From a virus, in the IMG/VR virus record IMGVR_UViG_3300029448_000404, positions 1 to 25,085 of that record: a stretch of 25,085 nt of DNA. One strand, 5' to 3'. Positions 858 to 20,936 of the stretch are shown piece after piece. The position numbers and the translations under genes are program-made. The notes under the pieces are model-generated. The model saw only the letters and a program-made list of their open reading frames with translations, did not search any database and was not told where the DNA came from. Each line of letters begins with the position of its first letter. Position 1 is the first letter of the stretch.

Positions 858-2146
858 TGGGTTCAGTATTTGTAACTGAGAGAGATAAAGTAATTAAGGA
901 TGTATTAGGTAGAAAACAACCTATTCCAATTTATTTACAATTTGTTCCTGGACTATGTGTAGAAGCTGTACATTCAAGCGAATCCTTATCATATAAAGGT
1001 ACACAAACAATAAATACAATTATAGCAGTTCCTCATGTAACTAAAAAACTTTATAATAAAAAGTCTATAGCTAGGGCAAATGAACAAAATAGATATTTTC
1101 CATTAATGAGGACAATGCATGATTTACCTTCAGCTGGAGATCCAGTTTTATTGTGTACAATAGGGAAAATAAATTATTACTTGGGTCCTTTAAATTCAAT
1201 GGAAAATAATGTAACTTGGAACAAAGACCCAAACTTTACATCTGAATTAAATTTAGATTTGTCATTTGAATATGGTGGAGTTTCAGAAGAGGGTAAGTCA
1301 GGAGAAACTTCAAATTTTAATAAAGAAAATCAATATAAAAGATTACAGAAAAAAAGAAAAGAAGGTTTGGACTATGGAATAAATATAGGTGAAACCACTG
1401 GTGACTCTATTATTGAAGGTAGGCATGGTAATAGTATTCGTGTTGGTAGTAGAAGTAACAATCCATATATTTTTATATCAAATCAAAGAGAATCAAGTAA
1501 TGATTTTGAATCTATAGGAGATGGTAGTTTAATAAGTATAACATCAAATGGGAATCTAAATCAACATCTTGGCGGTAAGGGTTTAGATAACTTTCAATTA
1601 GCATCCGATACTATTCCAGCAAATAAAATAAATAGAAGAATGGGTGAAATAATTTCAATTGTTAATAATGGTATAGATACTAATACATTACTTTATATCT
1701 ACGGTTCAAAATTAACTGATAGAAAAACCTTTGATGGAAACCCTATTTATGAAGGACTTATTAAAAATCAAATGTTATTACATTCTGATAGAATTATATT
1801 AAATTCTAAGGGTGAAGATGGTGATATTTATTTATCTTCTAAGAGAGATGTCCACATTGGGACAGGTAGACATTTAACAATATCAGCTAATGAAGATTTC
1901 ATAATAGAGTCACAACGAACATTTTTAGGTGGCACTCCGACTGAACAAATGGAATCAATGATATTAGGTGATAGTTTAATATTAATTTTAGAAGAACTTT
2001 TAACACTTTTAGGTGCTACGACATCTAATATGTATTTTCCAGTTCCACTAGCTATAGCTGGAACTCCATTAAAACAATATATGGATACATTAAAAGATAA
2101 ATTAGCAACAATAAAAAGTAACAAACATTTTATAGAACCAAACTAA
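857..2146 (+). CDS. Baseplate central spike-like protein (gp5/gpV type, OB fold plus beta-helix)
   Basis: This 429-residue protein has the layout of tail-spike proteins of the T4 gp5 / P2 gpV / VgrG class. Residues about 22-114 look like an OB-type beta domain, ending with a stretch on the pattern 'LPSAGDPVLLCTIG'. A charged, low-complexity linker follows (about 135-178). The second half alternates short beta strands with glycines and asparagines: about 180-211 (GNSIRVGSRSNNPYIFIS) and about 308-360 (DRIILNSKGEDGDIYLSSKR), as in the trimeric beta-helix needle. A C-terminal helical tail follows. No lysozyme domain is visible, unlike T4 gp5. It would sit at the axis of the baseplate and puncture the outer membrane on contraction. 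GGGGAG at 845-850 sits 6 nt before the ATG, and the start overlaps the upstream stop by one base. The class is likely; exact orthology is uncertain. Confidence 0.7.
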   Translation: MGSVFVTERDKVIKDVLGRKQPIPIYLQFVPGLCVEAVHSSESLSYKGTQTINTIIAVPHVTKKLYNKKSIARANEQNRYFPLMRTMHDLPSAGDPVLLCTIGKINYYLGPLNSMENNVTWNKDPNFTSELNLDLSFEYGGVSEEGKSGETSNFNKENQYKRLQKKRKEGLDYGINIGETTGDSIIEGRHGNSIRVGSRSNNPYIFISNQRESSNDFESIGDGSLISITSNGNLNQHLGGKGLDNFQLASDTIPANKINRRMGEIISIVNNGIDTNTLLYIYGSKLTDRKTFDGNPIYEGLIKNQMLLHSDRIILNSKGEDGDIYLSSKRDVHIGTGRHLTISANEDFIIESQRTFLGGTPTEQMESMILGDSLILILEELLTLLGATTSNMYFPVPLAIAGTPLKQYMDTLKDKLATIKSNKHFIEPN

Positions 2147-2158
2147 TAAGAGGTAATT

Positions 2159-2557
2159 ATGAAAAAGAAAAAAACAAATATAAAAACTATAATAAGACAA
2201 ATGGTTAGAGAAGAAGTTGCGATGGCTATCAAAGAAGTTATAACTGAATTGAAACAACCAACTCAATCTAAACCAAAACCAAAGAAAATTGTTGAGAAAA
2301 AATCATTTACAAATAATTCTGTATTGAATGATGTGTTGAATGAAACAGCTCAAGATGGTGAATGGAAAACATTAGGTGGTGGTGAATTTACAACTGATAA
2401 AATGAATGAATTGGTTGGTGGACAATATGGAGATATGATGAAGGATACACCACAACAAGTTCCATCAAGTGACCCAATGAGTCAATTCTTAAATAAAGAT
2501 TATAGTGAAGTTTTAAAAAAAACTGATGAAAAGCAAAAACAAAAACACGGAAGATAA
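2159..2557 (+). CDS. Small Lys/Gln-rich protein of the baseplate operon, function unknown
   Basis: I do not recognise this 132-residue protein. The N-terminal 35 residues are strongly basic and helical (KKKKTNIKTIIRQMVREEVA). They are followed by a Pro/Lys-rich disordered linker (about 36-50), a Gly-rich middle (GEWKTLGGGEF) and a basic Lys/Gln C-terminus. An amphipathic helix, linker and short motifs are typical of small phage assembly or scaffold-like proteins. The start has AAGAGG at 2148-2153, 5 nt before the ATG, and lies 12 nt after the spike gene stop. It is followed after 2 nt by the next start. Position between the spike and gp25-like genes suggests a baseplate or hub assembly accessory. 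That role is inferred from context, not from homology. Confidence 0.7.
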   Translation: MKKKKTNIKTIIRQMVREEVAMAIKEVITELKQPTQSKPKPKKIVEKKSFTNNSVLNDVLNETAQDGEWKTLGGGEFTTDKMNELVGGQYGDMMKDTPQQVPSSDPMSQFLNKDYSEVLKKTDEKQKQKHGR

Positions 2558-2559
2558 TT

Positions 2560-3120
2560 ATGGGATTAAAAGATGATTTAATGGAAGCCAAAGCTCAAGC
2601 AGCTTTAGCATCAGGAGCAAATCCAGATGATATAGATACATCTGCGGGTTCTCCTACTGAAGTTGAGGCTGAATTAATGAAAGAAGCTATAATTAATTTT
2701 TTAACAGAAGCTGATTTTACAGTAACTCAATTAAAAGCTCCTGTTACTGTTGAAAGTTTAAAAACACCTGACCAATTAGTAAATATTAGATTAGAAACTT
2801 TATTGGGTGATAAAGCACCAATACTAAAAACTATAAGAAAACTAGGTGCACTAATACCAGGAGCTGGTGAAGTCATAGATGAATTAGTTGATGAACTCGA
2901 AACTGCTATAGAAAAAGCTGTAACACCTTTATTAGAGGGTGGAGCTTCATTAGTTGGATTGGACTTAGACAAAGATGCTGGGGGTTTAGAAGCTGGTGGT
3001 TATGTCCATATTGGAGAAGATCCAGATTCAAAAAGTTCTTTTAATGTTGAGGATGAAAGTGGCCAAAGAAATTTTACAACTGTTAAATTAATTAGAGAAG
3101 ATGTTGAGGATATACTATAA
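2560..3120 (+). CDS. Acidic structural or assembly protein next to gp25-like gene, function unknown
   Basis: This 186-residue acidic protein is unrecognised. Residues 1-55 are Ala/Glu-rich and helical. Residues about 55-75 (DFTVTQLKAPVTVESLKTPD) look like a short beta region. Residues about 85-135 form a hydrophobic/acidic helical stretch with Gly-Ala-Gly turns (LIPGAGEVIDELVDELE). The C-terminus has a Gly-rich beta hairpin and an acidic tail ending EDVEDIL. No signal peptide or clear transmembrane helix is seen. The GGAAG before the ATG serves as a Shine-Dalgarno site. Its stop overlaps the gp25-like start by one base (TAATG at 3118-3122), so the two are probably translated together. A baseplate-associated role is inferred from the neighbourhood. 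Confidence 0.7.
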   Translation: MGLKDDLMEAKAQAALASGANPDDIDTSAGSPTEVEAELMKEAIINFLTEADFTVTQLKAPVTVESLKTPDQLVNIRLETLLGDKAPILKTIRKLGALIPGAGEVIDELVDELETAIEKAVTPLLEGGASLVGLDLDKDAGGLEAGGYVHIGEDPDSKSSFNVEDESGQRNFTTVKLIREDVEDIL

Positions 3121-3608
3121 TGGCTATTAAAGACATATCAAGAAAACCATATATTCAAGATAATGATACTAATGTTAAAGTTGGTATTGATTTACCAATT
3201 CGTAGAGGTGATGATTTAGATGGATTCTTTGCATCAACATCAACAACCATTGAAGCTGTAAAAAATAATTTAAGAAACTTATTACAAACTGAAGAAGGTG
3301 AGAGATTTTTTCAACCAAACTTAGGTTTAAATTTAAAGGCAGTTTTGTTTGAACAAATTAATGAAGAAAACTTGTTAAGTATACAAAATAAAATTTTAGA
3401 TAAAATTGATTTTTGGTTACCATTTATTGAAATTCATGACATCGAGTTACTAACAACAGATAAAGAACCAAGTATCAAAACTAATGAAATCAGAGTAAAA
3501 ATATTATTTAATTTAAAGCAAGACCCTAACACCTTAGATTCAGTGTCAATAAATTTTACAAGTAATGTAACTGGAGATAACACAACCACTGCTGGTGGTG
3601 GGTATTAA
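3120..3608 (+). CDS. Baseplate wedge protein, gp25-like
   Basis: At 162 residues this is close to the usual size of the GPW/gp25 family. The family's signature is clear at residues about 43-80: 'TIEAVKNNLRNLLQTEEGER' followed by FFQPNLGLNL, matching the classic N-Ixx-LLxT-xxGER-xxxPxFG-xL pattern. After it come the helix 'ENLLSIQNKILDKI' and a terminal beta sheet (about 100-150). In T4, gp25 joins gp6 and gp53 to form the wedge core around the hub and helps start sheath polymerisation. The gene sits directly before the gp6-like gene, an order common among contractile-tail phages and injection systems. The N-terminal approximately 30 residues precede the core domain and are ordinary. The start is set by the TAATG overlap and an upstream GAGG. 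Assignment is strong. Confidence 0.92.
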   Translation: MAIKDISRKPYIQDNDTNVKVGIDLPIRRGDDLDGFFASTSTTIEAVKNNLRNLLQTEEGERFFQPNLGLNLKAVLFEQINEENLLSIQNKILDKIDFWLPFIEIHDIELLTTDKEPSIKTNEIRVKILFNLKQDPNTLDSVSINFTSNVTGDNTTTAGGGY

Positions 3609-3621
3609 TTGGAGATAAAAA

Positions 3622-5862
3622 ATGCCAACATATGGTAAAGAAAATTTTAAAGAATCAAATGTAAATTATTTAAATAAAGATTTTGGAGCATTGAAAGAAT
3701 CATTAATGAATTATGCTAAATCTTATTTTCCAAATACATATCGTGATTTTAATGAATCATCACCTGGTATGATGTTATTAGAAATGAATGCTTATGTTGG
3801 TGATGTATTGTCATTTTATATTGACCAACAATATCGTGAATTATTACTACCATTAGCTGAAGAGAGAAGAAATATAATTAACTTAGCTAAAATGTTTGGT
3901 TATAAAGTAAAACCAATAGTTCCAGCTTATGTAGATTTAACTTTTACATCTGATGTAGCAGCATCAAGTGGTGATAATTCTAAAGTTGATTATTCAAAAG
4001 CGGGAACATTTAGTCCTGGCATTGAAATAACTTCAGCAGCAAATTCTGATATATCTTTTACTACACTTGAACATATTGATTTTAGAATATCATCTTCAAA
4101 TGACACTAACACAATTGGTAGTGTTGAGGATTCTGGTTTAGCATCAGCTTACACATTATCAAGAACTATAAGAGCTGTAAGTGCAACTGAAAAAACATTT
4201 TCATTTCAAGTTGGTTTACCTGTAAAATTTAGAACTCTAACACTACCAGATACAAATGTAATTGATATTATTTCTTGTGTGGATTCAAATAATAATAATT
4301 GGTATGAGGTTGATTTTTTAGCACAAGATAAAGTTCCAATCCAAACTCACTACACAGATGATGCTAATAGAACTTCGGCATATGGAAATAGTTTAAATAA
4401 TACAAATTCAGATGTGGCTGTTCCATACTCTTTACAATATATTAAAACAGGAAAAAGATTTACTCGTGAAACAAATACAGATAATACGACATCACTTATA
4501 TTTGGTAATGGAATCTTAAAAGATGGACAACTTGTTGACGATGGGTTTATTGATATGGAGCAAGTTGGAATTGTAATACCTGGACAGACAAATGATTTAA
4601 ATAATTCTATTGACCCATTGTTGGGTGATGAGTACTCAACTCTTGGTGAAACACCAAACCAAACAACTTTAACTATTACTTATCGTGTAGGCGGTGGTAT
4701 AGAATCAAATGTTCCTTCAAATGATTTAAATAGTGCACCAACTTCTTTATCTCCAGAAAATGGTGATACTTCAGCAAGATTATTAACTGTAAAAAATATC
4801 AATCCAGCTCGTGGTGGTAAAGACGAAGAAGATACAATTGAAATAAGAGAAAAAGCTAGAGCATTTTTCACAACACAAAACAGATGCGTTACAAAAGAAG
4901 ACTATGAAGCTAGAGTTATGAACATACCTGCTAAAAATGGAAACATCTCAAAGGTATATGTTACAAGAAGTGGTGATAATGTCACACCAGCTGGAGTAGA
5001 AGAATTTAATTCAGCAGTGGGAGATATGATGATAGCTACAAGTGGGTATAATAATTATTTAGGCCAAATGCAAGCATTAGCTGAATCGGATCAAGTAGAT
5101 GATGCAACATTTAGAAATTTAGCAATTACATTTACAGAGACTACCACAGCTGCAGGATGGGCTGAAAAGGGCCTTAATGCACAGGAAACTTTATTAACTT
5201 ATAGTGATTTAACAATATTTGAAGTATCAGCAATAAACATCTATGTATTAGGTTATGATAATCAAAAACAATTAGTTGGTAATCCACACGCAGGTTTTTT
5301 AGAAACATCTGATAATTTACCAATAACATTAAAAAACAATATAAAAAAATATTTAGATAATTTTAGAATAATGACAGATACAGTAACAATTAATGATGGA
5401 TACATTGTAAACTTTGGTGTAATATTTGATATTATTGCTGAAAAATATGCTGATAAACAAAAAGTAAAATTAGATTGTATACAAAAAATAATAGATTATT
5501 TTAATATTAATAAAATGCAATTTAATCAACCAATTTTTAAAAGTCAATTAGAATTTGAATTAATGGGTGTAGAGGGTGTTCGCTCTATTGGACACGTAAC
5601 TCTTACTCAAAAAGATGATTACAATAGTGATTCAGCTGACGCTGATTTATCTAAAGCAACATATAGATATTCATATGACAATGAAGGTGGGTTTGAAGAT
5701 TCGTCTATTAATGGTGGTGGAACTATTGGTTATGGTTATAAATATAATTTTCAAAATGCACTATCGGATGATGGTACAATTGTATTACCACCAAATACAT
5801 CAACACCAACGGTTTTTGAATTAAAGAATCCAAATCAAAACATACAAGGGAGAGTTAGATAA
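3622..5862 (+). CDS. Baseplate wedge protein, gp6/baseplate J-like
   Basis: This 746-residue protein fits the T4 gp6 / P2 gpJ ('baseplate J-like') family. Residues about 41-97 hold the characteristic N-terminal block (ESSPGMMLLEMNAYVGDVLS, then FYIDQQYRELLLP and a helix ending MFGYKVK). Residues about 397-450 hold the J-like core pattern: RGGKDEED, a helix with IREKARAFF, then the arm NRCVTKEDYEARV. Residues about 625-670 hold a late beta/alpha unit with the typical GVEGVRSIGHV. Two copies per wedge would build the inner ring that transmits the contraction signal. GGAG lies just before the ATG, 13 nt after the gp25-like stop. The stop overlaps the next gene by one base. It is somewhat longer than T4 gp6, with the extra length in the beta-rich middle (about 105-390). 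Assignment is strong. Confidence 0.9.
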   Translation: MPTYGKENFKESNVNYLNKDFGALKESLMNYAKSYFPNTYRDFNESSPGMMLLEMNAYVGDVLSFYIDQQYRELLLPLAEERRNIINLAKMFGYKVKPIVPAYVDLTFTSDVAASSGDNSKVDYSKAGTFSPGIEITSAANSDISFTTLEHIDFRISSSNDTNTIGSVEDSGLASAYTLSRTIRAVSATEKTFSFQVGLPVKFRTLTLPDTNVIDIISCVDSNNNNWYEVDFLAQDKVPIQTHYTDDANRTSAYGNSLNNTNSDVAVPYSLQYIKTGKRFTRETNTDNTTSLIFGNGILKDGQLVDDGFIDMEQVGIVIPGQTNDLNNSIDPLLGDEYSTLGETPNQTTLTITYRVGGGIESNVPSNDLNSAPTSLSPENGDTSARLLTVKNINPARGGKDEEDTIEIREKARAFFTTQNRCVTKEDYEARVMNIPAKNGNISKVYVTRSGDNVTPAGVEEFNSAVGDMMIATSGYNNYLGQMQALAESDQVDDATFRNLAITFTETTTAAGWAEKGLNAQETLLTYSDLTIFEVSAINIYVLGYDNQKQLVGNPHAGFLETSDNLPITLKNNIKKYLDNFRIMTDTVTINDGYIVNFGVIFDIIAEKYADKQKVKLDCIQKIIDYFNINKMQFNQPIFKSQLEFELMGVEGVRSIGHVTLTQKDDYNSDSADADLSKATYRYSYDNEGGFEDSSINGGGTIGYGYKYNFQNALSDDGTIVLPPNTSTPTVFELKNPNQNIQGRVR

Positions 5863-6965
5863 TGCATCATTTTATTTTTCCAACACAAGACACTTGGATT
5901 TCAAGTGGTAGTAGTAAAATAGATGGAACTTCTTTTAAAGACCAAAACTTTGGAAGAGACCAAATACTTGAAGTCAAAAAAGAATTTTTTAATAGTTCAT
6001 TTGACCATCCAACAAGAGCTTTAGTTCAATTTAGTGGGACAGATTTTACTGAACTGTCTAAATCTGTAGCTGATGGTACAATTACAAATCCAACATATTT
6101 TTTAAAACTTTTTGAGGCTGAGGGTAATGCAGAAATACAAGGAGATTATACTTTAGCTATTCAACCAATATCACAATCTTGGACAGAGGGTACAGGTAAG
6201 TTTGGTGATAGACCAAAAAATACAAATGGTTGTAGTTGGGAAAATCGTAGTAATCCTACTGGTGGAACAGAAGTAGCTTGGGCTAATTCTGGTGCAACAG
6301 TTTATACTATAAGTTCTTCAACTCAAACATTTTCAAATCAATCAGCTGATGTCGAAGCTGATGTTACAGATATGGTAAATATGTGGATAAATGGACAAGA
6401 AGAAAATTATGGAATGTTAGTTAGTTTTAGCGGAAGTCAAGAAACAGATACAACTACATTTGGTCATTTAAAATTTTTCTCAAGAAACACTCATACAATT
6501 TATCAACCAAAATTAGAAGTAAGATGGGACGACCATTTACCTTGTACTGGTTCGAATACAGGCTCATTAAATGAATTAACAATGAGTGGATTGGCTGATA
6601 ACTTTTTATACATGAGAGGTTTAAGGGAAGAATATAAAGAAGGTGAACGAGTTAAATTTAGAATTGGTGCTAGAAAAAGATACATTCAAAAAACATTTTC
6701 TAATTCTGTTCAAACCGTAACTGGTTCATTTATAACCGAAGGAAAAGGGTTATATGCTATTAAAGATGTTGCGACAGATGAATTTGTTGTTCCTTTTAGT
6801 GCTTATACAACAATGAGTTGTGACACTAATGGGATGTATTTTAATCAATGGTTAGATGGGTTTTATCCTGATAGAGTATATAAGTTTCAATTAAAACTAA
6901 AATATACAGATGGGCAAGAACAAGTGTTTGATGATGATTTTGAATTTATAGTTAAAAGGAAATAG
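5862..6965 (+). CDS. DNRLRE-domain baseplate or tail protein
   Basis: Residues about 1-225 of this 367-residue protein read as a DNRLRE-type beta-sandwich. It opens with FPTQDTWISSGS and a 'QNFGRDQILEV' strand, and includes TRALVQFSGTDF (the 'RALVQFDLS' hallmark), WTEGTGKFGDRP and, near 190, a stretch on the pattern D-MVNMWINGQEENYGMLV. Residues about 226-367 form a second, Ig-like beta domain ending in a basic tail. DNRLRE domains are best known from secreted cell-surface proteins; here the neighbours point to a virion part outside the wedge core, in the place where T4 has gp7 and gp8. GGGAG and the TAATG overlap fix the start. Domain reading is good; its exact place in the baseplate is inferred. 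Confidence 0.7.
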   Translation: MHHFIFPTQDTWISSGSSKIDGTSFKDQNFGRDQILEVKKEFFNSSFDHPTRALVQFSGTDFTELSKSVADGTITNPTYFLKLFEAEGNAEIQGDYTLAIQPISQSWTEGTGKFGDRPKNTNGCSWENRSNPTGGTEVAWANSGATVYTISSSTQTFSNQSADVEADVTDMVNMWINGQEENYGMLVSFSGSQETDTTTFGHLKFFSRNTHTIYQPKLEVRWDDHLPCTGSNTGSLNELTMSGLADNFLYMRGLREEYKEGERVKFRIGARKRYIQKTFSNSVQTVTGSFITEGKGLYAIKDVATDEFVVPFSAYTTMSCDTNGMYFNQWLDGFYPDRVYKFQLKLKYTDGQEQVFDDDFEFIVKRK

Positions 6966-6967
6966 TT

Positions 6968-8749
6968 ATGGCTGAATTAACACCGCAACAACAACAAGAA
7001 AATCTTGAAATATTATTAGATTTGGTAGCTGAAGCATTAATAGAAAGTTCTTTAGTTTCTACTAATTTAGTTAGAGAAAGTCAAAAAACAATTCGTAATG
7101 GTTTAATTCAAGTAGGTAGAACTAATGATGAGGGATTAGTTTTATATCAAAAAGATATTAAAGCTAATCAAGAAGATTTAGATTCTGAACAAGGTGCTGG
7201 ATTAGAAGTTCTACAACATTATGCAAATCAAGTTGTTGATTGGAATACTGTAAGTATTGCGGTTAATGGTGATATTGATATGATTGTATCTATATCTATT
7301 ATGGGTGGTGGTTTTCCTGATGGTGGTGTGGATATTACAAACTTTATTGTTGATGCAGAAAATGACAATCCTTTAAATGTAAGTCAATTTATTTCATTAG
7401 AACAATCATCATCAATTGTAGATGTAGAACAAGCTGAAGAATTTCTTGATACAAATATTTTTGAATTACTACCAAGTGGTGATACGAGACAAGCTAGAGT
7501 AACAAGATTTTTTCAAGAGTTAAATGCATTACTTCCACCATCAACACCTGAATTTGATTTATTCGATTCAGAGGGTAATGAAATTCCAGACAACAGAGTT
7601 GATAGAGCAGAGGATGGAACTTGGATTGGTGCTGAACAATATAGTCAAGATAATAGTATTTCGTACGCACAAGATAATCAAGATGGTAACATTGACGAAG
7701 AAGATGCTTACTTCCACAGATTAAAAGATACAGCAAATTCTACAAATGAAGCGAAAACCATTCAAGACATTTATAATAGAGTGCTTCCTTATTTAGATGA
7801 TATATTAGAAGAACAAGAAGAACCACAAGATGATAGGCCAACATATGTAAATAAATCAGATGGGTATTTAAAATTTAGAAATTTAAATCAAGGTATTATA
7901 ATTAGAAACACTCAAGAAGCTTTTGTTACAGGTTTAAATCCAGATCCAGATAGAGGTAGAGAATATTTAACTACAGGTTTTACAATATCAATGTGGGTTA
8001 GATTTTTAGATAAAACATCAACTGGAACTTTATTTAATTTTGGTAATCCATTTAGAAATCAACCTGACCCAAACTCTAATAGAGTTCAAGATGGATTTGG
8101 TTTTAAATTAGAAACATATGTTTTGAGTAGAGATGATAATACTGGTTATGCAACATTTGATGATAATAATGAACCTGATGATAGATATGATACATTTGGT
8201 AAATTTGTTGAAACTGTTAATTATAGGTCACCCTTTACTAATTTAAATCCATTTGAAAATACCGATTCAGCTCGTTTTGTAAGATTAGTCGTAAATGGAA
8301 CGGATACAAATGGAACTCCAGGATGGTTAAGAGATTCACATGTAGGATCACAACATATGTCAAAATTTACTTGGAATACTCCTGAAATAAATTTAGGCCT
8401 AAATGCAAACCAAGCTAGTGATGGTACTAATCAATCTGATGAATTAAGATTAATAAATTGTACACATATTCCTGAAGATTATAATGAATGGTATTTTATA
8501 AATGCCACATATAATCCTAATATAATTGAACCTGATAAATATAATATACTTGATGATTACAACTCAGGTTTAAATCCTTTGTGGGATAATTATAAACTGA
8601 ATTTTGATTATTGGATGAATAATTATTCTCCTAATGCTCAACAAGATGGTGGAGGGGCTTTGGTTGCAAAATCGGGTTATGGTAACCAATGTAAAGTAGA
8701 AATCATATCAAGGAGTGATTTATTAAGAGCTCGTGGATATAAGGTTTAA
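6968..8749 (+). CDS. Tail/baseplate protein with a C-terminal LamG-like domain
   Basis: This is a 593-residue protein. The N-terminal approximately 75 residues are helical and Gln/Glu-rich, probably a coiled-coil attachment segment. An acidic middle (about 75-285) includes a Gly-rich turn (SIMGGGFPDGG). From about 290 to 590 there is a concanavalin/LamG-type jelly roll: 'YLKFRNLNQGIII', then 'TTGFTISMWVRFLDKT' at about 335-350, 'GTLFNFGNPF', and a late 'YNEWYFINATYNPN' strand pair. Such domains bind glycans in many phage adhesins. AAGGA before the ATG supports the start, 2 nt after the previous stop. Position between the DNRLRE protein and the CBM/PKD protein suggests an outer baseplate or short-fibre component. 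The family name is not known to me; the LamG call is moderately sure. Confidence 0.65.
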   Translation: MAELTPQQQQENLEILLDLVAEALIESSLVSTNLVRESQKTIRNGLIQVGRTNDEGLVLYQKDIKANQEDLDSEQGAGLEVLQHYANQVVDWNTVSIAVNGDIDMIVSISIMGGGFPDGGVDITNFIVDAENDNPLNVSQFISLEQSSSIVDVEQAEEFLDTNIFELLPSGDTRQARVTRFFQELNALLPPSTPEFDLFDSEGNEIPDNRVDRAEDGTWIGAEQYSQDNSISYAQDNQDGNIDEEDAYFHRLKDTANSTNEAKTIQDIYNRVLPYLDDILEEQEEPQDDRPTYVNKSDGYLKFRNLNQGIIIRNTQEAFVTGLNPDPDRGREYLTTGFTISMWVRFLDKTSTGTLFNFGNPFRNQPDPNSNRVQDGFGFKLETYVLSRDDNTGYATFDDNNEPDDRYDTFGKFVETVNYRSPFTNLNPFENTDSARFVRLVVNGTDTNGTPGWLRDSHVGSQHMSKFTWNTPEINLGLNANQASDGTNQSDELRLINCTHIPEDYNEWYFINATYNPNIIEPDKYNILDDYNSGLNPLWDNYKLNFDYWMNNYSPNAQQDGGGALVAKSGYGNQCKVEIISRSDLLRARGYKV

Positions 8750-8755
8750 AATTTA

Positions 8756-11700
8756 ATGTCCATTCCAGAAGAAATATCATCTCAATTTGGTGTTTTTGAA
8801 GGTGTTAAACCTGAACAAACACTATCTCAATCATTTGATCCTTACAGTGGTATAGAAATAACATCAAGTTTCGTAAATACAGAAGTTGGACTTTTAAGTT
8901 CAAATTCAGATGGTAGAGTACCATTAGGTTTATTTTTTTTCGATGAAGATAATTATTTACAAAATAATTTTCCAGATGTAATTTCAGATCCAAAATTTAA
9001 ACAAATTGAAGTAACAAATTTAGTAGAAAATGGTACTGGTCAAGCTGTAAAAAGTTTTTATAATGTTTTAGATGCTGGTGATCCTATAATTGATGGTGTT
9101 GTTGTGGATAGGTCGATTTTTATTCCCGAAGGTGGTTGGGGATATAGTAGATATGATGGTGTGGGACAATCAGATAGAATGACAAACGACAGTGTAGATT
9201 ATAGTATTACATGGGGCCATTTGATTTGGGATAACGATGTAGGTCAAAATGGTGATGGAGTGGTTGATCCAAGTAAATACAGTAACTATCATATTATATG
9301 GAGTGAAGGTGAATTTCCTGATTATGAAGATAGGGGTGGTGGTTATTTTGGTTTTGATGGTGGTGGAGGTCCTGGTGGTGGTGGAGTTCTGTCCAGATAT
9401 TGGCAACAATCTGGTTATAGTTCTGAAGATAATCAACTTGGTATAAGTCCTGGTTATGCTGGATATTATCCATATCATACACTTTTAGAACTTCAAACAA
9501 AATTAAGAGACCAATTAACTAAGTTAGAAAATGAAGATATAGAATATGATGAATTATGTAATGAATTTGTAAAAGAGGTAATGGCTGATAGAAATGGAAC
9601 TAATAGATTCATACCAACTGTTGCATTTCAAGGTGTAAGTGATGGTGTTGTGTTTCCAAATTTTGCACATTGGTCTAATTTTATAGAAGGTGCCTCATAT
9701 GGTAGAGCTTTAGAATTTACTGCTACTAATTATCAAGCCGCTGTTTTTGACACCGCACAAAATAATACGGGTACATTTGAACAATTTGATGGAAATGGGT
9801 TTGGTTGGCATTGGGGAGATAGTGAAAACTCAAGTTATTTAAATGGAATAGGTCAAAATCAATACAGAACATTAAATCAATGCATAAAAATATATGATGC
9901 TTTTGAACAAACTAAAGAAAGTGAACTTTCTCCATACACTACAATGACAGTTAAATTTAGAATGTATACTAAATTTGCAGATTCAAATGGTGTAATGCCA
10001 GAAGTGGAAACTGCAATCCTTGATGGGGATGGTGAAGTTGGAGATCCCCAAAGAATAGATATTATAGGAGAGTTTGATAACAATTATATACATAAAGGAA
10101 CTGATGGTTTTGTAGCTACTGAACCAGAAGATTTTGGCGTATCTTTCTGGCCACTCTCCTTTCCAGATAATGAAATCATGCATTTCAGAGGTTATGGATT
10201 TCCCAAAAATTTTCATTATAAACCTTATGGTGATTTTCATTCATTAAGATATAATGATGGTTTAAACAATGATGGAACACTTAGTCATAAAGCTTCAAAT
10301 TTTGGAAGTATGGGTAGATTTAAAAATAGTGAAGTTGGAAAATGGGAAACTTTTTCTTATACTTTTAGTTTAAATGAAGCTTTTAATTATTTTAATAAAA
10401 CTTTAACTGTGCCTAGGTATACTGATTTTGATGTTGAGAAAAATCCTCCTCCTTATAAAAACACATTAGGAAAAGTTAGAGATTTACATTTTATGATACA
10501 AGCTGCTAACGAATTTCTTGGAACAGTTTATATTGATGATATAGAAGTTTATCAATCAGGAGACTTCATACCTGATGTTGATGTTAGAAAAAAAATATCT
10601 ACAGGACAATATGGTACGGCTGATTTAACAAAATATTATGATAAAGATTTACAACCAGAGGAATACAAAGATTCACAAGGTCCATTGGAGGCACAATTTT
10701 ATTTTTATCCAAACTATATAACTGAAGAAATATTTGACAAAAAAAGAACACCAATGTATCGTGATTTTCAAGAGGGATTATTTTATTTATATGATATAAA
10801 TTGGGGCGATGGTTCAAAAAATGATTTTATAACTGAACCTAAACAAATAGATGAAAACACAAGTGTTTATCATGCATATGAAACCCATGGAATTTTTGAA
10901 ATCACTGGAACTATGTTACGACTACAAAAACAAGAAAATGGTTCAATAGCTGGTATAATTAGTAATAAAAAATTTACTCTAAGAATAAATATTAATCCAG
11001 GTAGTGATGAAGATTTTAATTTTTTTAATACTGAAGGATATTCTTTTTTACCATATAAAAATACTGTACCGATGATTGGTGGTTATTCTGAACAAAGTAT
11101 TTATTATAAATCTTTAAAAAGACAATTGGGTTATCTAATTGCAGGTAAAGACACTTTAATGGATAATATAGAAGAAGAATATAGAGGAATAAATTATACT
11201 GATTTACCTTCCGCGGTTGCAGCATTAGGAGATTTCGACACTCCTAGCCCAAATGGTCCTCCAATTCCACTTTTGGCGGAGGACGGAGTTCCATTATTAT
11301 TACATTATGATAATGATACAATCAATAAATTTATATCTGAAACTGGTAATGATGATATAGTTGCCGGTACATTAAAAGTTAATGAATTTAATGCTATTTA
11401 TACAGCCAAGTGGACTGGTACACCTACTCAAGGCTCTTGGAGTTTACAAGAATACAATTTTATTCAAGGACAACAAGATGAAGACTATTATAATGAATCC
11501 CACACACCATCATTTTATGAAGTAACTTTATTTAAATTAATTGGTATTGAAACTCCTATTAAAATTACTGTAAATTTTGCTAGTCAAGGGGACAGATTAA
11601 AAGCAGAACTAGCATTGTTAAAAATGGATAGCAATTTTGAAACTCAAGGATTTAATGAAGTTTTTCCAGAATATATGAGACAACGAACACTTGCAAATGG

Positions 11701-12286: not shown

Positions 12287-14820
12287 TGGCTCAAATAAAA
12301 AAAATAATTAACGATAAACCCAGAGTTGGTTTACGAGGTCAATATAATTTTGAATCAGGTTCTAATGATTTTAGTTACGAAAATTCAACCAGTATACCAG
12401 CAGATTTTGATAAATTTCAAAAAAAAGATTTATACACTACTACGGAGGGTATTTATATAAATGAAGTAATTCTTCAAAACAATTTAAAATTTGAAGGTTC
12501 ATCTCTAATTAAAATTGATGAAATGAAAATGTGGTGGAATTCAGCTGAATATCAAACAAGACAGCATAAAGTTAGGTGTTGGATGTGGTCTCAATCAGCT
12601 AAAGACGGATTTAATTTCAAATTAGAAGATGCTAGTAAAAGTGAGAATGATGTTTATAGATTTTATGACTACTATGATGATGTTAATAAAAGTAGGAAAA
12701 CTAATTGGAATGTTGAAGAGATTGAGGGAGTACCAATAGTTCAAAATATATATGGGGATAGAGTTTTAACGACTGATAATGCACTTAGAGGGGATTCTGG
12801 AATTAAAAATGGATTCAATCCACTTGACGCTCTTACATTACTTGATGAAGCCAATACGGAATATGCTGTAATCGACCAGACAGTATATAATCCAATTTGG
12901 ATAATAATTTATGTCAGAGCATCAGCTGATAGTTATTCAAGGGGGGCTGATAAAACTAGAGCTATAACTTATTCTTTTATGATTAATAATTTAGATTTGT
13001 TTGATGAGAATGGTAATGGTAGACTTAATGAACTAACTTTAGATATTGATAGAAGTAAAACACATGAAGATCCTGGAAGTCATGCTAGAGTACATCGATA
13101 TAAGATGAAAAACCTTAAAGTATCAATAGATACGAGTCCAGGTGGTAGTAATACTGAAGAGGTTAGACAAAACTTTGAACAAGAAATATTAAATGTTGAA
13201 CCTTCAATAGAATTTGATTTTTCTGATTTTAATCCAACAGATTTTTTAAGATTAACACCCTATGCTGCTTTAAATAATATACGTGCTAACTCAGATTTAA
13301 GTGTAGCGCTTCCAGATTTTTTTGTAAAATCAACAGTATCAATATTGGATAAAAATACATTAGATGAAAATAGTACTGAACTTCCTCAAAATTTTATAGA
13401 TTTACAAAGTTATTATATCGACACTGATCCTTTATTGTCTTTAAAATCATCAGCTCCAGCAGAAGTTGGTTTTGATTTACTCTTTACTGTGCCAGACAAT
13501 ATTAATGTAGATGCATCTGGAGATTATAATTATTGGGTTGTTGATTGGAATGATAAGGATAATAAATTCTCATCTTTAGATGATTATATAAATTTAGCAC
13601 CAACAACTTTAAATGAACTATTGGAATTACAAAATCAAAATTTATATCTCCCAAAAAATCAATATCAAGCTGTCTGGGGTGGAGGCCTCGACTTTGGAAA
13701 CCAATCTGAAAATTATATTCCAATAACCAACGATTATAAAACACCTGGAATAAAAACTATAAAAATTATTGTTATTAATTCAAATTCGAATGAAGGTGGA
13801 TTTAATTCAACTTATGGTAGGATAGGGAGATGGAAACTTGTAACAATAAGATTTTATTTAGATATACCAATTAATCAATATCCTGATTTTGGTGATGTTG
13901 GTGGAAGTGATTACACTACTTTACCTTGGCCATATACAACTCCAATCATCGGTGGTGTTGATAAAAATTCAAAATACAAAAAAAGTATTCAAGATACATT
14001 GAGTAGTGGTAAGATTGGTGATACGGATATTATTGATGAAAAGTTTTTAACAAGAGATTTAGAAAATGATGAAATGGGTCAAACTATTTTTGAATTTGAT
14101 TTAGAGCGAGTAAGATTTTTTAATACTTCTTATGATATGAATGATTTGTTACAGATACCTGCAGGTGAAGGTTTATTAACAACAGAAGATTTAACACAAC
14201 AAATTGAAAGTTTTTATAATCCAACTATAACATTTGAGGATTATGAACAAGCAGATACATCTCCTGAATATTTAGCTACTTTACCATTTCCACAATATAT
14301 TGAAGAATTTGATTTAAATGGAAATGGTGAAGTAGATTTTGAAGATGCTGGTGAATGGGTTAATCCTTATATTGAAAGACCAGATATTTCAGATATGTTA
14401 TATGAATTATATTCCGGTGGTGAACCACCATCCTATTATACTTATCCTGATTATGTTTATGAATGGACTAATTGGTTAGATATAGAAAGAGGTATCAATA
14501 CCTACTCTGATTTTAATCCATACAATAATTTTTCACATTGGGATGGTTCAACACCTGCCAGAACTTTTTCAGAGAAAAGTTCAGTTGAACAGATATTTAT
14601 AAGTGACAATTTAGATGTTGATTTAAAAGAAAGTTGCAAATTAGAATTAAATACAGGTGAATTAACTGGTAAATCTATTTTGGATTCAAGTGGTAATTCA
14701 AACAAAGGATTAATATTTGGTGATTATAAAGTTAAAAAAGAGAGAAAAGGTAATCCAATGAGACGAGATTCTTTTATAAAAGTTCCTAAAAAAGCAAATA
14801 ATAAAAATGGAGCGTTGTAA
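12286..14820 (+). CDS. Large tail protein with dockerin/EF-type Ca loops, partial paralogue of the gene before
   Basis: This is an 844-residue protein. Its second half repeats the order seen in the preceding protein: a PKD-like fold from about 412 (VVDWNDKDNKF) to about 540, including 'DYKTPGIKTIKIIVIN' at about 483-498; a 'PIIGG' turn at about 552; and a C-terminal module around D800-S-S-G-N804 ending NNKNGAL. At 676-687 is a full dockerin/EF-type loop (D676, N678, N680, G681, V683, D684, D687). A weaker one lies at 240-249 (DENGNGRLNE). Both suggest bound calcium, common in marine adhesins. The N-terminal half (about 1-390) is beta-rich and unrecognised. The start has GGGG upstream and overlaps the previous stop. 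A probable baseplate-periphery or fibre component; exact function unknown. Confidence 0.65.
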   Translation: MAQIKKIINDKPRVGLRGQYNFESGSNDFSYENSTSIPADFDKFQKKDLYTTTEGIYINEVILQNNLKFEGSSLIKIDEMKMWWNSAEYQTRQHKVRCWMWSQSAKDGFNFKLEDASKSENDVYRFYDYYDDVNKSRKTNWNVEEIEGVPIVQNIYGDRVLTTDNALRGDSGIKNGFNPLDALTLLDEANTEYAVIDQTVYNPIWIIIYVRASADSYSRGADKTRAITYSFMINNLDLFDENGNGRLNELTLDIDRSKTHEDPGSHARVHRYKMKNLKVSIDTSPGGSNTEEVRQNFEQEILNVEPSIEFDFSDFNPTDFLRLTPYAALNNIRANSDLSVALPDFFVKSTVSILDKNTLDENSTELPQNFIDLQSYYIDTDPLLSLKSSAPAEVGFDLLFTVPDNINVDASGDYNYWVVDWNDKDNKFSSLDDYINLAPTTLNELLELQNQNLYLPKNQYQAVWGGGLDFGNQSENYIPITNDYKTPGIKTIKIIVINSNSNEGGFNSTYGRIGRWKLVTIRFYLDIPINQYPDFGDVGGSDYTTLPWPYTTPIIGGVDKNSKYKKSIQDTLSSGKIGDTDIIDEKFLTRDLENDEMGQTIFEFDLERVRFFNTSYDMNDLLQIPAGEGLLTTEDLTQQIESFYNPTITFEDYEQADTSPEYLATLPFPQYIEEFDLNGNGEVDFEDAGEWVNPYIERPDISDMLYELYSGGEPPSYYTYPDYVYEWTNWLDIERGINTYSDFNPYNNFSHWDGSTPARTFSEKSSVEQIFISDNLDVDLKESCKLELNTGELTGKSILDSSGNSNKGLIFGDYKVKKERKGNPMRRDSFIKVPKKANNKNGAL

Positions 14821-17800
14821 TGCCACAGTTTGAATATGAATTTTCTGAACAAGATAGACAATTAACGATTAGTGAAGGTGCGGTTAAATTTGGAGATAAT
14901 CCATATGATTATATTCGTTTAACTATTTATCCAAGTGAAGCAATTGATAATATTGTTGATTTACCTGATGATACAAAAGGTATTGATGGGCAGGCAATAT
15001 TTTATTCATCCATTAGTACAGACCCATTTGAAATAAACTTATCACCATTTACTGACTCACTTGATGAACTTAAAACTATGCAAATCGGTGGTACTGGTCA
15101 TAATGGTGGTGATTTTAAAATATACAAAAATCTAATTGATAATATTTACATCAAGCCAAATGAAATATTTAATGAATTTGGACTACCACAAGGTGCTTAT
15201 TCAATACAAATTGATTTTTTAAATCAAGTTAGTCCACCATTTGATGAAACACATTTTGATGATATGGGAGGAGAAATTTTACCTGCTACAGGTGATAATG
15301 CTCATTATCAATTTATTATAAAACAAATTTCAACTTCAAGAAAAGAAGTTCGTTTAAAATTATTAGATAAAAATATTGTAAATAATTCATCAACTATTTT
15401 AAATTTAACACAAGAGTTCAATGATAATCAACCTGAATTTTTAGATGAAGTTGATGGTGATGGGAATCAGATACCAAACCCAAGTTATAAATATCAATTT
15501 AAACATATATTAAATTTAGGAACCGGTGACCATAATCCAATAATGAATTATCAGTTTGATAGGGTATCTGATGGTAGAAATAACCAATCAATTATTTTAA
15601 AATTATATGATGCATTACCACCGAACATTACAAACTTAACAATGGTTAGTATTGAAAGAGAAATTATAACAACACAGATTCAAAATATTACATATTTTTC
15701 TGATGTTGCTCCTATTTTTTTTGGTGACGGTTTACAGCCAGACAGTTCAGAAAACTGGATAAATCCTACTAACAATCAAATAGGATTTGAAAACTATGAT
15801 GAATTAAGTGGTTCGATAGATGTTACTGCATTAGATAATTTAGTTTCAGAAAGTTTATATAATTACCCAAATTTAAACACAGATTTTACTGAATTTAAAA
15901 ATCATACATTTTTTGGTTCTGCTAAGAAAAAACTTGAAAACTTTAAAACAAAAGTTGAAACTATTCAAGGATATTATTCTGATATAGAAAGTTCACTTCA
16001 TATGAGTGGTGTGAATGTATTTGGAGATTCAAGTGCCGTAATTCAAAAAAGAAAAGATTTATTTAAAAAAATAAATGATGAAATAAAAACATTTACACCT
16101 TATGAAAGATTTTTATATTATGATGGGCAAAGTGAGTCAAGCGCATCAGCTCCTGGTTTGGGTAAAAATTATGCAGATATAGTTCCTGTGAGGGATGGAG
16201 TGTTAGGTGATTATGAAGGAGCACTAAATGGTGCTGATGGTTTTAATGTTGTGTATCATCACTCATCTAAAAATGTTGGTGGCTCACCAAATAGTAAATA
16301 TATAGATTTATTTACTGGTAAATATAATGTACAAGATAAACCATTTTTTAATTATAGTGGTTCACTTTTTTTATCATTTTTAATGAAGGGTGATAGTGGA
16401 AGTGCAATAACTTGGGAAAATAGAAATGCTAACTCTAATAATTCATTAGGTGCTTCTTTACCCCGCGAAGCTCTTCATCAGACTGAAATTAGTAATCCTA
16501 ACATAACAAGTAGTAAATATCAAAGATATGTTTTCAAAGCATCACAATCTTATTGGACTCCGGAAGGAACTATTGATAATGATGTTGGTAGTATTACAAC
16601 TTGGTCGGGTTCAAGAGAATACAATATTTTAAGTACAAATACAAAAACAGGTTCTGTATTGATTAAAGACTCTACGGGTTTATATCCAACAACAGTTGTA
16701 TCATCCAGCGCAGGAATACCTTTTAAAGGTTCAATAATGCCAGCTGGTGAATTGTTTAGAATTTTTATTATAAGTGATTTATCTTCAAGTTTAAGTGGTA
16801 GTTGGAATTTAGATTCTCAAACTTCAGGTGCTGCTGTTACAAATGCAATGTTAACCGACTTTAGTGGTAGAGGTAATTCAGGTTCAATAGAAGGAACACC
16901 AACGGTGTCTGATGGAGTATCAATTCATAATTCAACTTATGGAAACTCATTTTTATTCCAAAGTGAATCAAATGAGGGTGTTAGATTTTTTAGTGATACT
17001 GACTTTAATTATGGTAGAGAGGATAATTTTTCATTAAGTGTATGGGCAAAAAGATTTCATCCTGATACAGGTTCAGCAGACTCAGCTGGAAAAGCCGCAC
17101 AACCAATTTTTACAAGAGGTTTTGGGGCTGAATCATATGGTATAGATTATGATTTTGTTAATAATCAATTAAGAGCTGGTGTAAGGCCTGACGGCTCTAA
17201 TATGATAAACGCTGCGTTTAATGTAACAGACGATTTATTAGAATGGAATCATATTGTATTTACATTCGAAAGTGGTTCATCTACTGGTATAAAACTTTAT
17301 CTTAATGGTGAGTTAAAAGATACAGAATCAACAACAGGAACTGGCTATAGAATAACTGGTTCTGAAGACTTTACCTCTTCAGCTGCTACTATGAACACAT
17401 CTGAAGACGCATTAAGTATTGGTAGTAATGATGTGATAGGAGGTACGGCTGGATTTTACAATGGATTTATACAATATCCAAGAGTTTATAATAAAGCCAT
17501 AACATCGGCTGAAGTTCAAGAATTATATCAAAAACCTGATGGAATTTTAGACACAAAAATTACAGATGTTAAAGTAACACTTGTTAATCCAACTGATGTT
17601 TTACCATTTGATAATTTATATCATACAAGTTCAGCTAATTGGAATAATTGGTATAATGGTACATACGATTCAGCATCTGCTTTTGATAATGAAAATATAC
17701 ATAGTTTAGAAAACAACTTACCTCTTTATATTCAAGAAAGTTCTGATTATAATGAAATGAAAGATTTTCTTTCATTACAAGGTGAACAATATGATTTAAT

Positions 17801-20800
17801 TAAAAATCATATAGATTCAATGGGAACACTTCATGACAGAGGATATAAAAAAACAAATTCTCCTCCAGAAAACACATATCCTATATTATTAAACAATATG
17901 GGTTGGGAAGCAATAAATCCTTTTAGTGGTAGTTTAACTGATTCATTAGGTTCATATTTAACTGGTGTTACTTCAATTGATGATATTAAGAATAACACTT
18001 GGAGAAAAACACTTAACAATTTATTATACATTTATAAATCAAAAGGAACACAAAATTCTGTAAGAGCATTACTTAACACATATGGTTATCCACCTGATGT
18101 TATTGGCTTTCAAGAATTTGGAGGGGGTTCACAAGATTTAGATTTAGAAGATGAAATTCCTGATTTAGAAGATGTAAGTGGTAGTTTTGGATATAATGTT
18201 GTCCCTAAAATTTTACATAGATATATGTTTCAAAATAAACCAGAAAGAATTTTAAATCTTGATTGGTGGATGGATAGTGCAGATTTAGAAACTGTAGAAT
18301 TTGTTTATAAACATAAACAAACTAATAATGAACAAAAAATATTAAAATCAAGTGGTAGTGGTGATGAGACACTTTGGGATTTAAGATTAATTCCAAGTGC
18401 AAGTACTACAGATGTAGTTTTCTCACGATTCCAATTTAGATTAAATAATTCTAATACAGGCTCTTTAGCAATAGCTGATAATGCAGTTTCAATGTCAACT
18501 ATTGACCTTGAAGTAAGAGACGGAGAATTGTGGAATGTAATGTTACAAAGAATGACATCAAGTATAAGTGGAGCCGGAACACAAGAATATAAATTGCATG
18601 CAGCATTACAAGATGGTGCTCAAATCAAAACTTTTAATTCTGTAAGTATGTCTGTAAGTGGAGGATTAGAAACATTTGCAACTGCTTCATTTACATTTAT
18701 AGAATCAGCTTCCAATAACGATAAAATTACATTTACCTCAGCAGATGGAACAACTAAAACATATATGGCATTGTCATCAAGTGTAAATGGTGCTTTATCT
18801 GCTAGTAATTTAGTTTTATTTGCAACAGGTTCGGGAACAACAAAGGGTGCTGGTTCCTCTTCAGCTGCTGGTAATTTATTAGCAGCCATAACATCATCTA
18901 ATGGGCATGGGAATAAATTTTCTGTTAACCAACCATTTGAGACATTGGGTAATATTTCATTTACACAGAATGTGGGTGGTCCTAAAGGTAATACAGTTAT
19001 ATCAGTTGGTTTGGGTGAACTTACTAGTTCTACTAATCCTAATCCTCCAACTTCTTTTGTTGGTGGAAGCACTGATAGTAATCATTTTGCAAATAGAAAT
19101 TGGCAGTCAAGTGGTTCAAGACATTATTTATCTTCATCAAATTTATTTGTTGGTGAAACTGTAAGTGGTTCATTAGCAGAAATAAAAAGTTGGAAAACAG
19201 CTTTAAGTGCATCAAGCTTTAAAAAGCATGTACTTAATAAATTTTCTACTGTTGGTAATTCAATAGAATCATCTGACACAGAATTAGTTTATCATTTTAA
19301 ATTAAATGAAAATTACACAAGTGGTTCAGTAACTTCTTCAAATCACTTATTAACAATTGTAGATGCGGCACCAAAGTGTAGTGTATTATTAACAACAGAT
19401 TACTCATTTCAAAAAAGTGGAAGTATGTTTACAGGTTCTGCTGTTTATGGAGTTGATACAATACAAGTTTTAACATTTGGTTTTTACGATAATATAGTAG
19501 GTGATTATAGTGTTAATGATAATAATGTTTTAGTTATTGATAATAATCCAGTAATTGGTAATTTAAATCCACATTCATCAGCTATAGAATCATTAACAAG
19601 GCCAATAGGTAAAAAACCTAAAATTATAACTTCGCTTAAATTAGAAATTAATCGTTCACCACAAGATGCTGTTAACAGCTTTATATTAAATAATTTAGAT
19701 GGTTTTAATTTTGAAGATTATTATGGTAATCCAAAATATTATTATTCGTCATCATACAGTGAATTTGACACACTTAGAAAAGAGTTTTTTAAATGTTTTC
19801 CTGTAAAAGTTGATGTAAATACATTTGTCAGAGCTCATGAAGATATGTTTAATCATTCACTTTCTGAGGGTTTAAAAGCATTAGTTCCAGGCCGTTCTAC
19901 ATTTAGTGATGTAAATTCAAATGCAGGTGTAACAATAAAACCAACCATATTAGAAAAACAAAAATATGAAAACGAAAAACATAGTCTTGAAACAAATCCC
20001 AATACAGCTACAGGTAGTATTGAGGTAGTTTCTAAAGAAATCATAATGAGTGGTTCAATTCTTATATCACCAATAAGTGGTTCAGTGGATAGAGGATATA
20101 CTCCTTTTGGAATACCAAGTAGTGAAAGTTCATTAATAATACCATCTACTACTGGTTCAAAACTTGAGTTACCTTATAGTGCATCAATTAAAATATCAGA
20201 CTCTGGTAGTAAAAATGCTGTAACTGTTTTATCAAGTTCAATTATAAATCCACACTCTGTTTCAATATCGGTGGTTTCTTCAACTATAACTAGCGGTTCA
20301 CTTATCATATTCCCATCATCGGGTTCAATTGATTATGCATCAGATGCTAATGAATCATTTGTAAATATACACGATAGTTGGGGAACAAGTTCAGTTGATA
20401 CTCAATTTATAAATTTTGCCGCACCTCTTGATTCTGATGGTAATCATAATACTTATGATATAGATACGAGATTTAATTTTATTTCAATTGGTGACACTGA
20501 AATATATTCAGGTTCAAGACAAGGTAATGCTTCATTTAATTACTCTGATTTCTCAAATGCAGGTAGACTACACAATAGAAAAATAGTTAGTAATGATATT
20601 CATTCCAATGTCATTTATGAATCACTAATAAATTTAAATTCAGGACCTCAAACAGGAAGAATGATAGGAAAAACAAGATATTTCCTAACTGGTTCAGATG
20701 GTACAATAACACTTCCATCAAATCATATAAGTAAATTTAGTCAACCATTTAAAGAACGAATGTATGAAGGGGCACAAAACATTACAAATAGTGGTTCATC

Positions 20801-20936
20801 ATTTCTAAACGTACAGCATGAAGATTATTCAAGTGCTTCATTTTATAGAGTTAAAGTAACTGGTGGTGAAAGAGAAATTGTAATAAGAGATGGTAGTCAA
20901 CCATCATTAGATTCGGATGATAAAATAATATACTAA
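14820..20936 (+). CDS. Giant (2038-residue) modular tail protein with P2 gpI-like section and LamG domains
   Basis: Parts in order: a beta-rich N-terminus (about 1-350); a helical segment (about 359-454) on the pattern 'FFGSAKKKLENFKTK' then FTPYERFLYYDG; a jelly-roll-like stretch (about 480-655); a LamG domain (about 655-910) with 'NFSLSVWAKRF', 'EWNHIVFTFES' and KLYLNGELKD; a section resembling P2 gpI-type tail proteins (about 960-1104) with 'LLYIYKSKGTQNSVRALLN' then TYGYPPDV; a second LamG-like fold (about 1120-1480) that seems split by an inserted domain (about 1283-1415); a conserved block (about 1633-1730) with FPVKVDVNTFVRAHE and 'GVTIKPTILEKQK'; and a Ser/Gly-rich C-terminus with an internal repeat. 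The gpI-like part would attach it to the wedge and the jelly rolls would reach outward. GGAG and the TAATG overlap fix the start. One uninterrupted frame, no sign of decay. Confidence 0.7.
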   Translation: MPQFEYEFSEQDRQLTISEGAVKFGDNPYDYIRLTIYPSEAIDNIVDLPDDTKGIDGQAIFYSSISTDPFEINLSPFTDSLDELKTMQIGGTGHNGGDFKIYKNLIDNIYIKPNEIFNEFGLPQGAYSIQIDFLNQVSPPFDETHFDDMGGEILPATGDNAHYQFIIKQISTSRKEVRLKLLDKNIVNNSSTILNLTQEFNDNQPEFLDEVDGDGNQIPNPSYKYQFKHILNLGTGDHNPIMNYQFDRVSDGRNNQSIILKLYDALPPNITNLTMVSIEREIITTQIQNITYFSDVAPIFFGDGLQPDSSENWINPTNNQIGFENYDELSGSIDVTALDNLVSESLYNYPNLNTDFTEFKNHTFFGSAKKKLENFKTKVETIQGYYSDIESSLHMSGVNVFGDSSAVIQKRKDLFKKINDEIKTFTPYERFLYYDGQSESSASAPGLGKNYADIVPVRDGVLGDYEGALNGADGFNVVYHHSSKNVGGSPNSKYIDLFTGKYNVQDKPFFNYSGSLFLSFLMKGDSGSAITWENRNANSNNSLGASLPREALHQTEISNPNITSSKYQRYVFKASQSYWTPEGTIDNDVGSITTWSGSREYNILSTNTKTGSVLIKDSTGLYPTTVVSSSAGIPFKGSIMPAGELFRIFIISDLSSSLSGSWNLDSQTSGAAVTNAMLTDFSGRGNSGSIEGTPTVSDGVSIHNSTYGNSFLFQSESNEGVRFFSDTDFNYGREDNFSLSVWAKRFHPDTGSADSAGKAAQPIFTRGFGAESYGIDYDFVNNQLRAGVRPDGSNMINAAFNVTDDLLEWNHIVFTFESGSSTGIKLYLNGELKDTESTTGTGYRITGSEDFTSSAATMNTSEDALSIGSNDVIGGTAGFYNGFIQYPRVYNKAITSAEVQELYQKPDGILDTKITDVKVTLVNPTDVLPFDNLYHTSSANWNNWYNGTYDSASAFDNENIHSLENNLPLYIQESSDYNEMKDFLSLQGEQYDLIKNHIDSMGTLHDRGYKKTNSPPENTYPILLNNMGWEAINPFSGSLTDSLGSYLTGVTSIDDIKNNTWRKTLNNLLYIYKSKGTQNSVRALLNTYGYPPDVIGFQEFGGGSQDLDLEDEIPDLEDVSGSFGYNVVPKILHRYMFQNKPERILNLDWWMDSADLETVEFVYKHKQTNNEQKILKSSGSGDETLWDLRLIPSASTTDVVFSRFQFRLNNSNTGSLAIADNAVSMSTIDLEVRDGELWNVMLQRMTSSISGAGTQEYKLHAALQDGAQIKTFNSVSMSVSGGLETFATASFTFIESASNNDKITFTSADGTTKTYMALSSSVNGALSASNLVLFATGSGTTKGAGSSSAAGNLLAAITSSNGHGNKFSVNQPFETLGNISFTQNVGGPKGNTVISVGLGELTSSTNPNPPTSFVGGSTDSNHFANRNWQSSGSRHYLSSSNLFVGETVSGSLAEIKSWKTALSASSFKKHVLNKFSTVGNSIESSDTELVYHFKLNENYTSGSVTSSNHLLTIVDAAPKCSVLLTTDYSFQKSGSMFTGSAVYGVDTIQVLTFGFYDNIVGDYSVNDNNVLVIDNNPVIGNLNPHSSAIESLTRPIGKKPKIITSLKLEINRSPQDAVNSFILNNLDGFNFEDYYGNPKYYYSSSYSEFDTLRKEFFKCFPVKVDVNTFVRAHEDMFNHSLSEGLKALVPGRSTFSDVNSNAGVTIKPTILEKQKYENEKHSLETNPNTATGSIEVVSKEIIMSGSILISPISGSVDRGYTPFGIPSSESSLIIPSTTGSKLELPYSASIKISDSGSKNAVTVLSSSIINPHSVSISVVSSTITSGSLIIFPSSGSIDYASDANESFVNIHDSWGTSSVDTQFINFAAPLDSDGNHNTYDIDTRFNFISIGDTEIYSGSRQGNASFNYSDFSNAGRLHNRKIVSNDIHSNVIYESLINLNSGPQTGRMIGKTRYFLTGSDGTITLPSNHISKFSQPFKERMYEGAQNITNSGSSFLNVQHEDYSSASFYRVKVTGGEREIVIRDGSQPSLDSDDKIIY
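20049..20342 (+). repeat. Internal protein repeat in the C-terminus of the giant tail protein
   Basis: Residues 1744-1760 (SGSILISPISGSVDRGY, bases 20049-20099) and 1825-1841 (SGSLIIFPSSGSIDYAS, bases 20292-20342) share 9 of 17 positions and lie 81 residues apart. This suggests a tandemly repeated small beta unit. The DNA copies have diverged, so it is an old duplication or a structural convergence. Confidence 0.5.

Follow-up and report, generated by a model that had tools for sequence, protein, structure and literature searches.

In-frame insertion of a predicted sheath/FliD-type domain in the giant tail protein of an uncultivated phage

Introduction

A seven-stranded beta-sandwich with a helix has been described as an additional lateral domain of phage tail sheaths, and the same fold was reported for nozzle, auxiliary capsid, FliD and flagellin proteins (PMC12846349). 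In crassviruses, the auxiliary capsid protein gp36 contains a FliD-like (FD) domain at residues 75-237, located between two parts of a PH domain, and this domain of related fold touches the capsid protein (PMC10172136). These two papers already document the fold and its repeated use on the surface of phages. Additional sheath domains, mostly Ig-like, are found away from the tube and were proposed by Evseev et al. to be stabilizing; the same article, citing others, mentions promiscuous Ig-like domains that horizontal exchange has spread among virion proteins (PMC9230969). The tail structure of cyanophage A-1(L) has been reported (PMC10966104), and shuffled protein fragments (domain mosaicism) have been presented as a general phenomenon that includes tail proteins (PMC10684548).

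The sequence examined here is the 25,085-nt virus record IMGVR_UViG_3300029448_000404, the whole of which is called the window below. Residues 1283-1416 of its giant tail protein form a module that is like the sheath lateral ("additional") domain of A-1(L), Milano and XM1 and of Adele, phiTE and Sf14 in its predicted fold. In contrast to the sheath domains, it occupies a loop within a tail protein that is not a sheath and whose orthologues have the site empty, and its sequence family is not represented in Pfam, PHROG or NCBIfam. The FD domain of crassvirus gp36 belongs to the same fold class (FliD 6IWY, flagellin 4NX9) and is likewise inserted in another domain, but host fold and virion part are different, and filled and empty orthologue sites are not described for gp36 in the sections of PMC10172136 cited here. 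The insertion is an instance of the general phenomenon treated in PMC10684548, although the word sheath is absent from the main text of that paper and the module is not described in the sections cited here. Open-licence literature, as judged by titles and the start of abstracts, held no description of the module in a LamG-type or baseplate-region protein. New here are the comparison of filled and empty sites and the several entry points in one protein.

Results

The tail protein is encoded by an ORF of 2038 aa (14820..20936, + strand), assigned from the ORF list and homologues, and all its features given below lie on the same strand. A homologue is found downstream of the baseplate genes in the Flavobacterium phage immuto and another downstream of the tail lysozyme gene in the Microcystis phage Mel-JY01. 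Residues 1062-1102 gave a weak match to phrog_48 (tail, E 0.015). The protein has a LamG domain of its own (Laminin_G_3, residues about 732-900, 17013..17519), which scored 52.6 bits in Pfam, above the curated cut-off; it is the sole Laminin_G_3 match over the cut-off in the window and is separate from the domain that the module interrupts. Upstream of the tail gene, the protein encoded at 5862-6965 has a Pfam match to CBM96 (carbohydrate-binding, E 6e-10).

Relatives were collected by scanning viral contigs, first with residues 901-1560 (n=32) and then with a module-free alignment, which added seven contigs (L087, L092, L095, L096, L098, L100 and L101). L097, L094, L090 and other re-fetches of the same contigs were left out before counting, whereas rows with a low pLDDT or a long branch (L101) were kept in the total of 39. 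Of the first 32 relatives, 30 gave a blastp alignment to residues 901-1560 that was split in two, the 5' piece stopping at 1277-1285 and the 3' piece resuming at 1412-1424. With L031 and L032 the alignment ran through; the segment is also absent from the window's site in these two, which have a related module elsewhere. The seven relatives of the second scan showed an unbroken alignment to the module-free row. The initial annotation had suggested a comparison with homologues that lack the insert: residues 1283-1416 (18666..19067) are missing at that site in 39/39 relatives, and the flanks join directly. The N-terminal half of the interrupted domain (residues about 1120-1282, 18177..18665), which is conserved and ends in Gly-Gly, is contiguous in the module-free relatives with the C-terminal half (residues about 1417-1500, 19068..19319, from the comparison of relatives). 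As judged from these sequence comparisons, segment 1283-1416 is a real insertion in the tail protein. The earlier proposal of a separate inserted module with flanks forming one domain is borne out by the empty site and by the tree described below; its limits (1281-1417) are correct within a few residues, and the motifs quoted with it, GHGNKFSV and PKGNTVISV, are present where they had been placed. The richness in Ser, Ala and Gly that had been pointed out (37.9% S+A+G) is by itself unremarkable, as 140 of 1906 segments of the same length in the protein reach that value. The insertion rests on the homologue comparison and not on composition.

The closest relative, L002, is 86% identical over 500 columns and has no module. 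In the tree it is the sister of the window with a support of 100/100, and the next branch, L004 (88/91), also lacks the module. Columns filled in less than 30% of the rows were dropped from this tree. The module was still largely present in the rows of L031 and L032, which had 666 and 676 residues ahead of this removal, and the siteB result of the tree is unreliable. Because the relatives, including the sister and the next branch, are without the module, a single gain on the window's branch is the simplest account of its distribution. The alternative, a module ancestral at the window's site and lost by the relatives, draws on the ease with which an accessory domain may in principle be lost, but several separate losses would be needed to empty the site in all 39, L002 and L004 among them, and we regard it as very unlikely. 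Still harder to credit is an assembly chimera in the metagenomic contig. The GC content of the module (35.6%, ninth among 191 windows, compared to 30.4% for the ORF) would fit such an origin, but the segment is in frame, its third-codon GC of 12.9% is like that of the ORF (11.5%), and several independent contigs encode related modules in proteins of this family.

At the 5' seam the sequence reads GGAGGA (Gly-Gly, 18660..18665), and two glycine codons are found there in five module-free relatives; the 3' end of the module reads GGTGGA (19062-19067). The paired glycine codons at the seams may reflect microhomology or chance. Beyond these two codons, no target-site duplication was detected at the module edges. 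An 11-nt perfect inverted repeat is present near both edges of the insert (18659-18669 and 19039-19049, 369 nt apart), which by our own estimate is within chance for AT-rich DNA. The insert corresponds to one domain and gave no match in Pfam, PHROG or NCBIfam, to an enzyme family or otherwise. A self-mobile element (transposon, intein) is not supported, as neither a target-site duplication nor inverted ends beyond chance nor an enzyme of its own was seen for the segment.

A LamG-like fold, which the initial annotation had assigned to the interrupted domain, could not be established. Laminin_G_3 matched weakly in 2 of the 17 module-free members of this domain (best E 0.0048), hhalign against the tail protein's own Pfam-confirmed LamG family gave 0.1%, and a wider LamG set matched no better. 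In the flank domain of L033, a match to Laminin_G_3 positions 102-147 (E 8.6e-4, below cut-off) covers the predicted closing strands. The flank profile also hit a proteasome subunit in the PDB (E 0.0021), which was taken as chance. A single-sequence model of 534 residues (17997-19600) was uninformative with a pLDDT of 33.5, and the combined alignments of flanks and module (A5, A8, A9 and A10) were rejected, their module rows falling wholly or partly on wrong columns despite tuning of the row set.

Profile iteration over the fetched loci yielded 41 domain rows of the module family, some of which are re-fetched or near-identical contigs. The family model matched the window at 18690-19070 with E 4.4e-25, the window itself being one row of the model. 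Conserved throughout the family are a Tyr that follows the first hairpin, a G-H pair behind the helix, the motif G-x-x-G-N and, at the end, F-x-G-G. In the window the G-H-x-G motif appears as GHGNKFSV (18903..18926), with N at the fourth position, and the G-N motif as PKGNTVISV (18981..19007); in the 30 rows of alignment A11, G and H of the former and the first G of the latter are invariant and its N nearly so. Of 24 records searched with A11, 13 gave matches; these are mostly rows of the model, an exception being an extra copy in an open frame of 1966 aa on a contig of 147 kb. The nearest copy found is only about 40% identical to the window's module, which therefore has no known donor. No match was obtained in cultured phages by tblastn with six module queries (low-complexity filter on), two scans of bacterial and archaeal genomes gave no copy, and a viral scan with the window's module alone confirmed nothing.

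The module was modelled by AlphaFold with the 30 family rows of A11, a row set that was not tuned in the manner of the combined alignments. The model (pLDDT 73.9, pTM 0.73) shows strands, one helix (model residues 62-75, 18849..18890) and again strands, the last 11 residues being unsure. Foldseek found no match in the PDB at E<=0.001, and five among predicted viral proteins (best E 5.8e-7, TM 0.69). The top match in VIA-align was the sheath of cyanophage A-1(L), residues 93-184, with Z 8.8, followed by phage Bas63 (7.8), FliD (7.3 and 7.1), Milano (7.1) and the portal-tail structure of cyanophage P-SCSP1u (6.8); the XM1 sheath was found at 5.8. All but two of the values are under the caution line of Z 8, below which a match may reflect a common arrangement. 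The first 33 rows (Z 5.0-8.8) are sheath, FliD, flagellin or flagellar, and phage connector or portal/tail proteins, and entries cited in PMC12846349 (8i4m, 6iwy, 5h5w, 8erm) recur in the list. It is the consistency of this list rather than any single Z value that carries weight. The predictions support a beta-sandwich with one helix, nearest to the sheath lateral domain and the outer domains of FliD and flagellin. The best PDB sequence match of the module was the Milano sheath (gp20, E 0.11), and the protein of L065, a divergent member, matched positions 93-186 of phrog_165 (tail sheath) with E 2.2e-5 over residues 155-256, where its module copy is located. Phage Ig-like domains as mentioned in PMC9230969 resemble the module as accessory domains spread among virion proteins, but Ig-family Pfam profiles gave no match at E<=10 in four module copies, and antibody chains reached a Z of 2.8 or less in VIA-align compared to 8.8 for the sheath.

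In orthologues of the tail protein, related modules are found at three other places. L031 and L032 have one in an earlier loop of the same interrupted domain, L025 in a C-terminal stretch that runs without a gap in the window and in many relatives, and L096 in a linker. Beyond this protein, phrog_23 identified seven out of 14 scanned host proteins as tail sheaths. The sheath of L050 (phrog_23, 1375 aa) has three module copies, as do proteins of about 1000 aa in L058 and L059, the former without informative PHROG match. In L035, two copies are present in a protein of LamG type (weak match to Laminin_G_3 under the cut-off, E 2.3e-6), where its homologue in L044 has a short loop. The module family is thus re-used in other virion proteins.

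Some of these loci showed further features. In L035, two sheath-like proteins are encoded side by side (6113-8728 and 8744-10399), one with the module and the other without a listed match. In L057, a 190-kb contig, a 2958-aa open frame (1467-10340) has two modules and no PHROG match. The orthologous tail gene of L030 (3-3911, IMGVR_UViG_3300025103_000041) has in-frame TGA codons, at least two of which align by eye with Trp residues in the protein of the window; translating TGA as Trp gives an open frame of 1302 aa that contains seven of these codons. In this phage TGA probably codes for tryptophan; a tRNA search in the L030 locus found none.

Discussion

The reading we consider probable is that of an autonomous accessory domain of the sheath-lateral/FliD/flagellin type, inserted in frame in a baseplate-region tail protein and working as a surface decoration. 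The domain would have entered a loop of a conserved beta-rich domain without loss of frame, on the lineage leading to the window's phage and after the closest known relative had branched off. Glycine-rich seams may make it tolerable to the host domain, with the two halves still folding together. We infer that the module is most likely exposed on the surface, where it would make weak contacts with neighbouring virion subunits or with the cell surface, and that it is rather not the main receptor-binding part.

A possible but distinctly less favoured function is that of structural cement, the module stabilizing the assembled tail via contacts between neighbouring subunits. The contact of the related-fold domain of gp36 with the capsid protein (PMC10172136) and the stabilization by additional sheath domains proposed by Evseev et al. 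(PMC9230969) would be in line with this, but at the window's site the module is dispensable for assembly, being absent there from every relative compared.

Tail sheaths are not known as receptor-binding parts. That so many of them carry the family speaks against a host-range determinant exchanged through selection by the receptor, a role along the lines of the initial annotation; we regard it as unlikely, even though the presence and place of the module vary and the tail protein bears a LamG domain elsewhere. Because the module is frequent on sheaths, a specific host-range role is less likely than a general surface role, and this frequent placement suggests a general surface accessory.

In a wider perspective, and with somewhat less confidence than for the window itself, we favour the view that this unnamed FliD/sheath-fold sequence family is a portable insert of uncultivated phages. 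It would enter loops of folded domains at several places, in baseplate-region, LamG-type and sheath proteins, singly or in tandem and without disrupting the host domain, to serve as a general-purpose decoration of the virion surface. The sister without the module and the orthologues with related copies elsewhere provide a clear pair of filled and empty sites for a domain insertion in a virion protein. Accessory domains of sheaths are tied here to one in another tail protein by a sequence family, beyond fold alone. Finally, the comparison of close relatives makes it testable how phages gain surface domains and what purpose the FliD/sheath-type domain serves.
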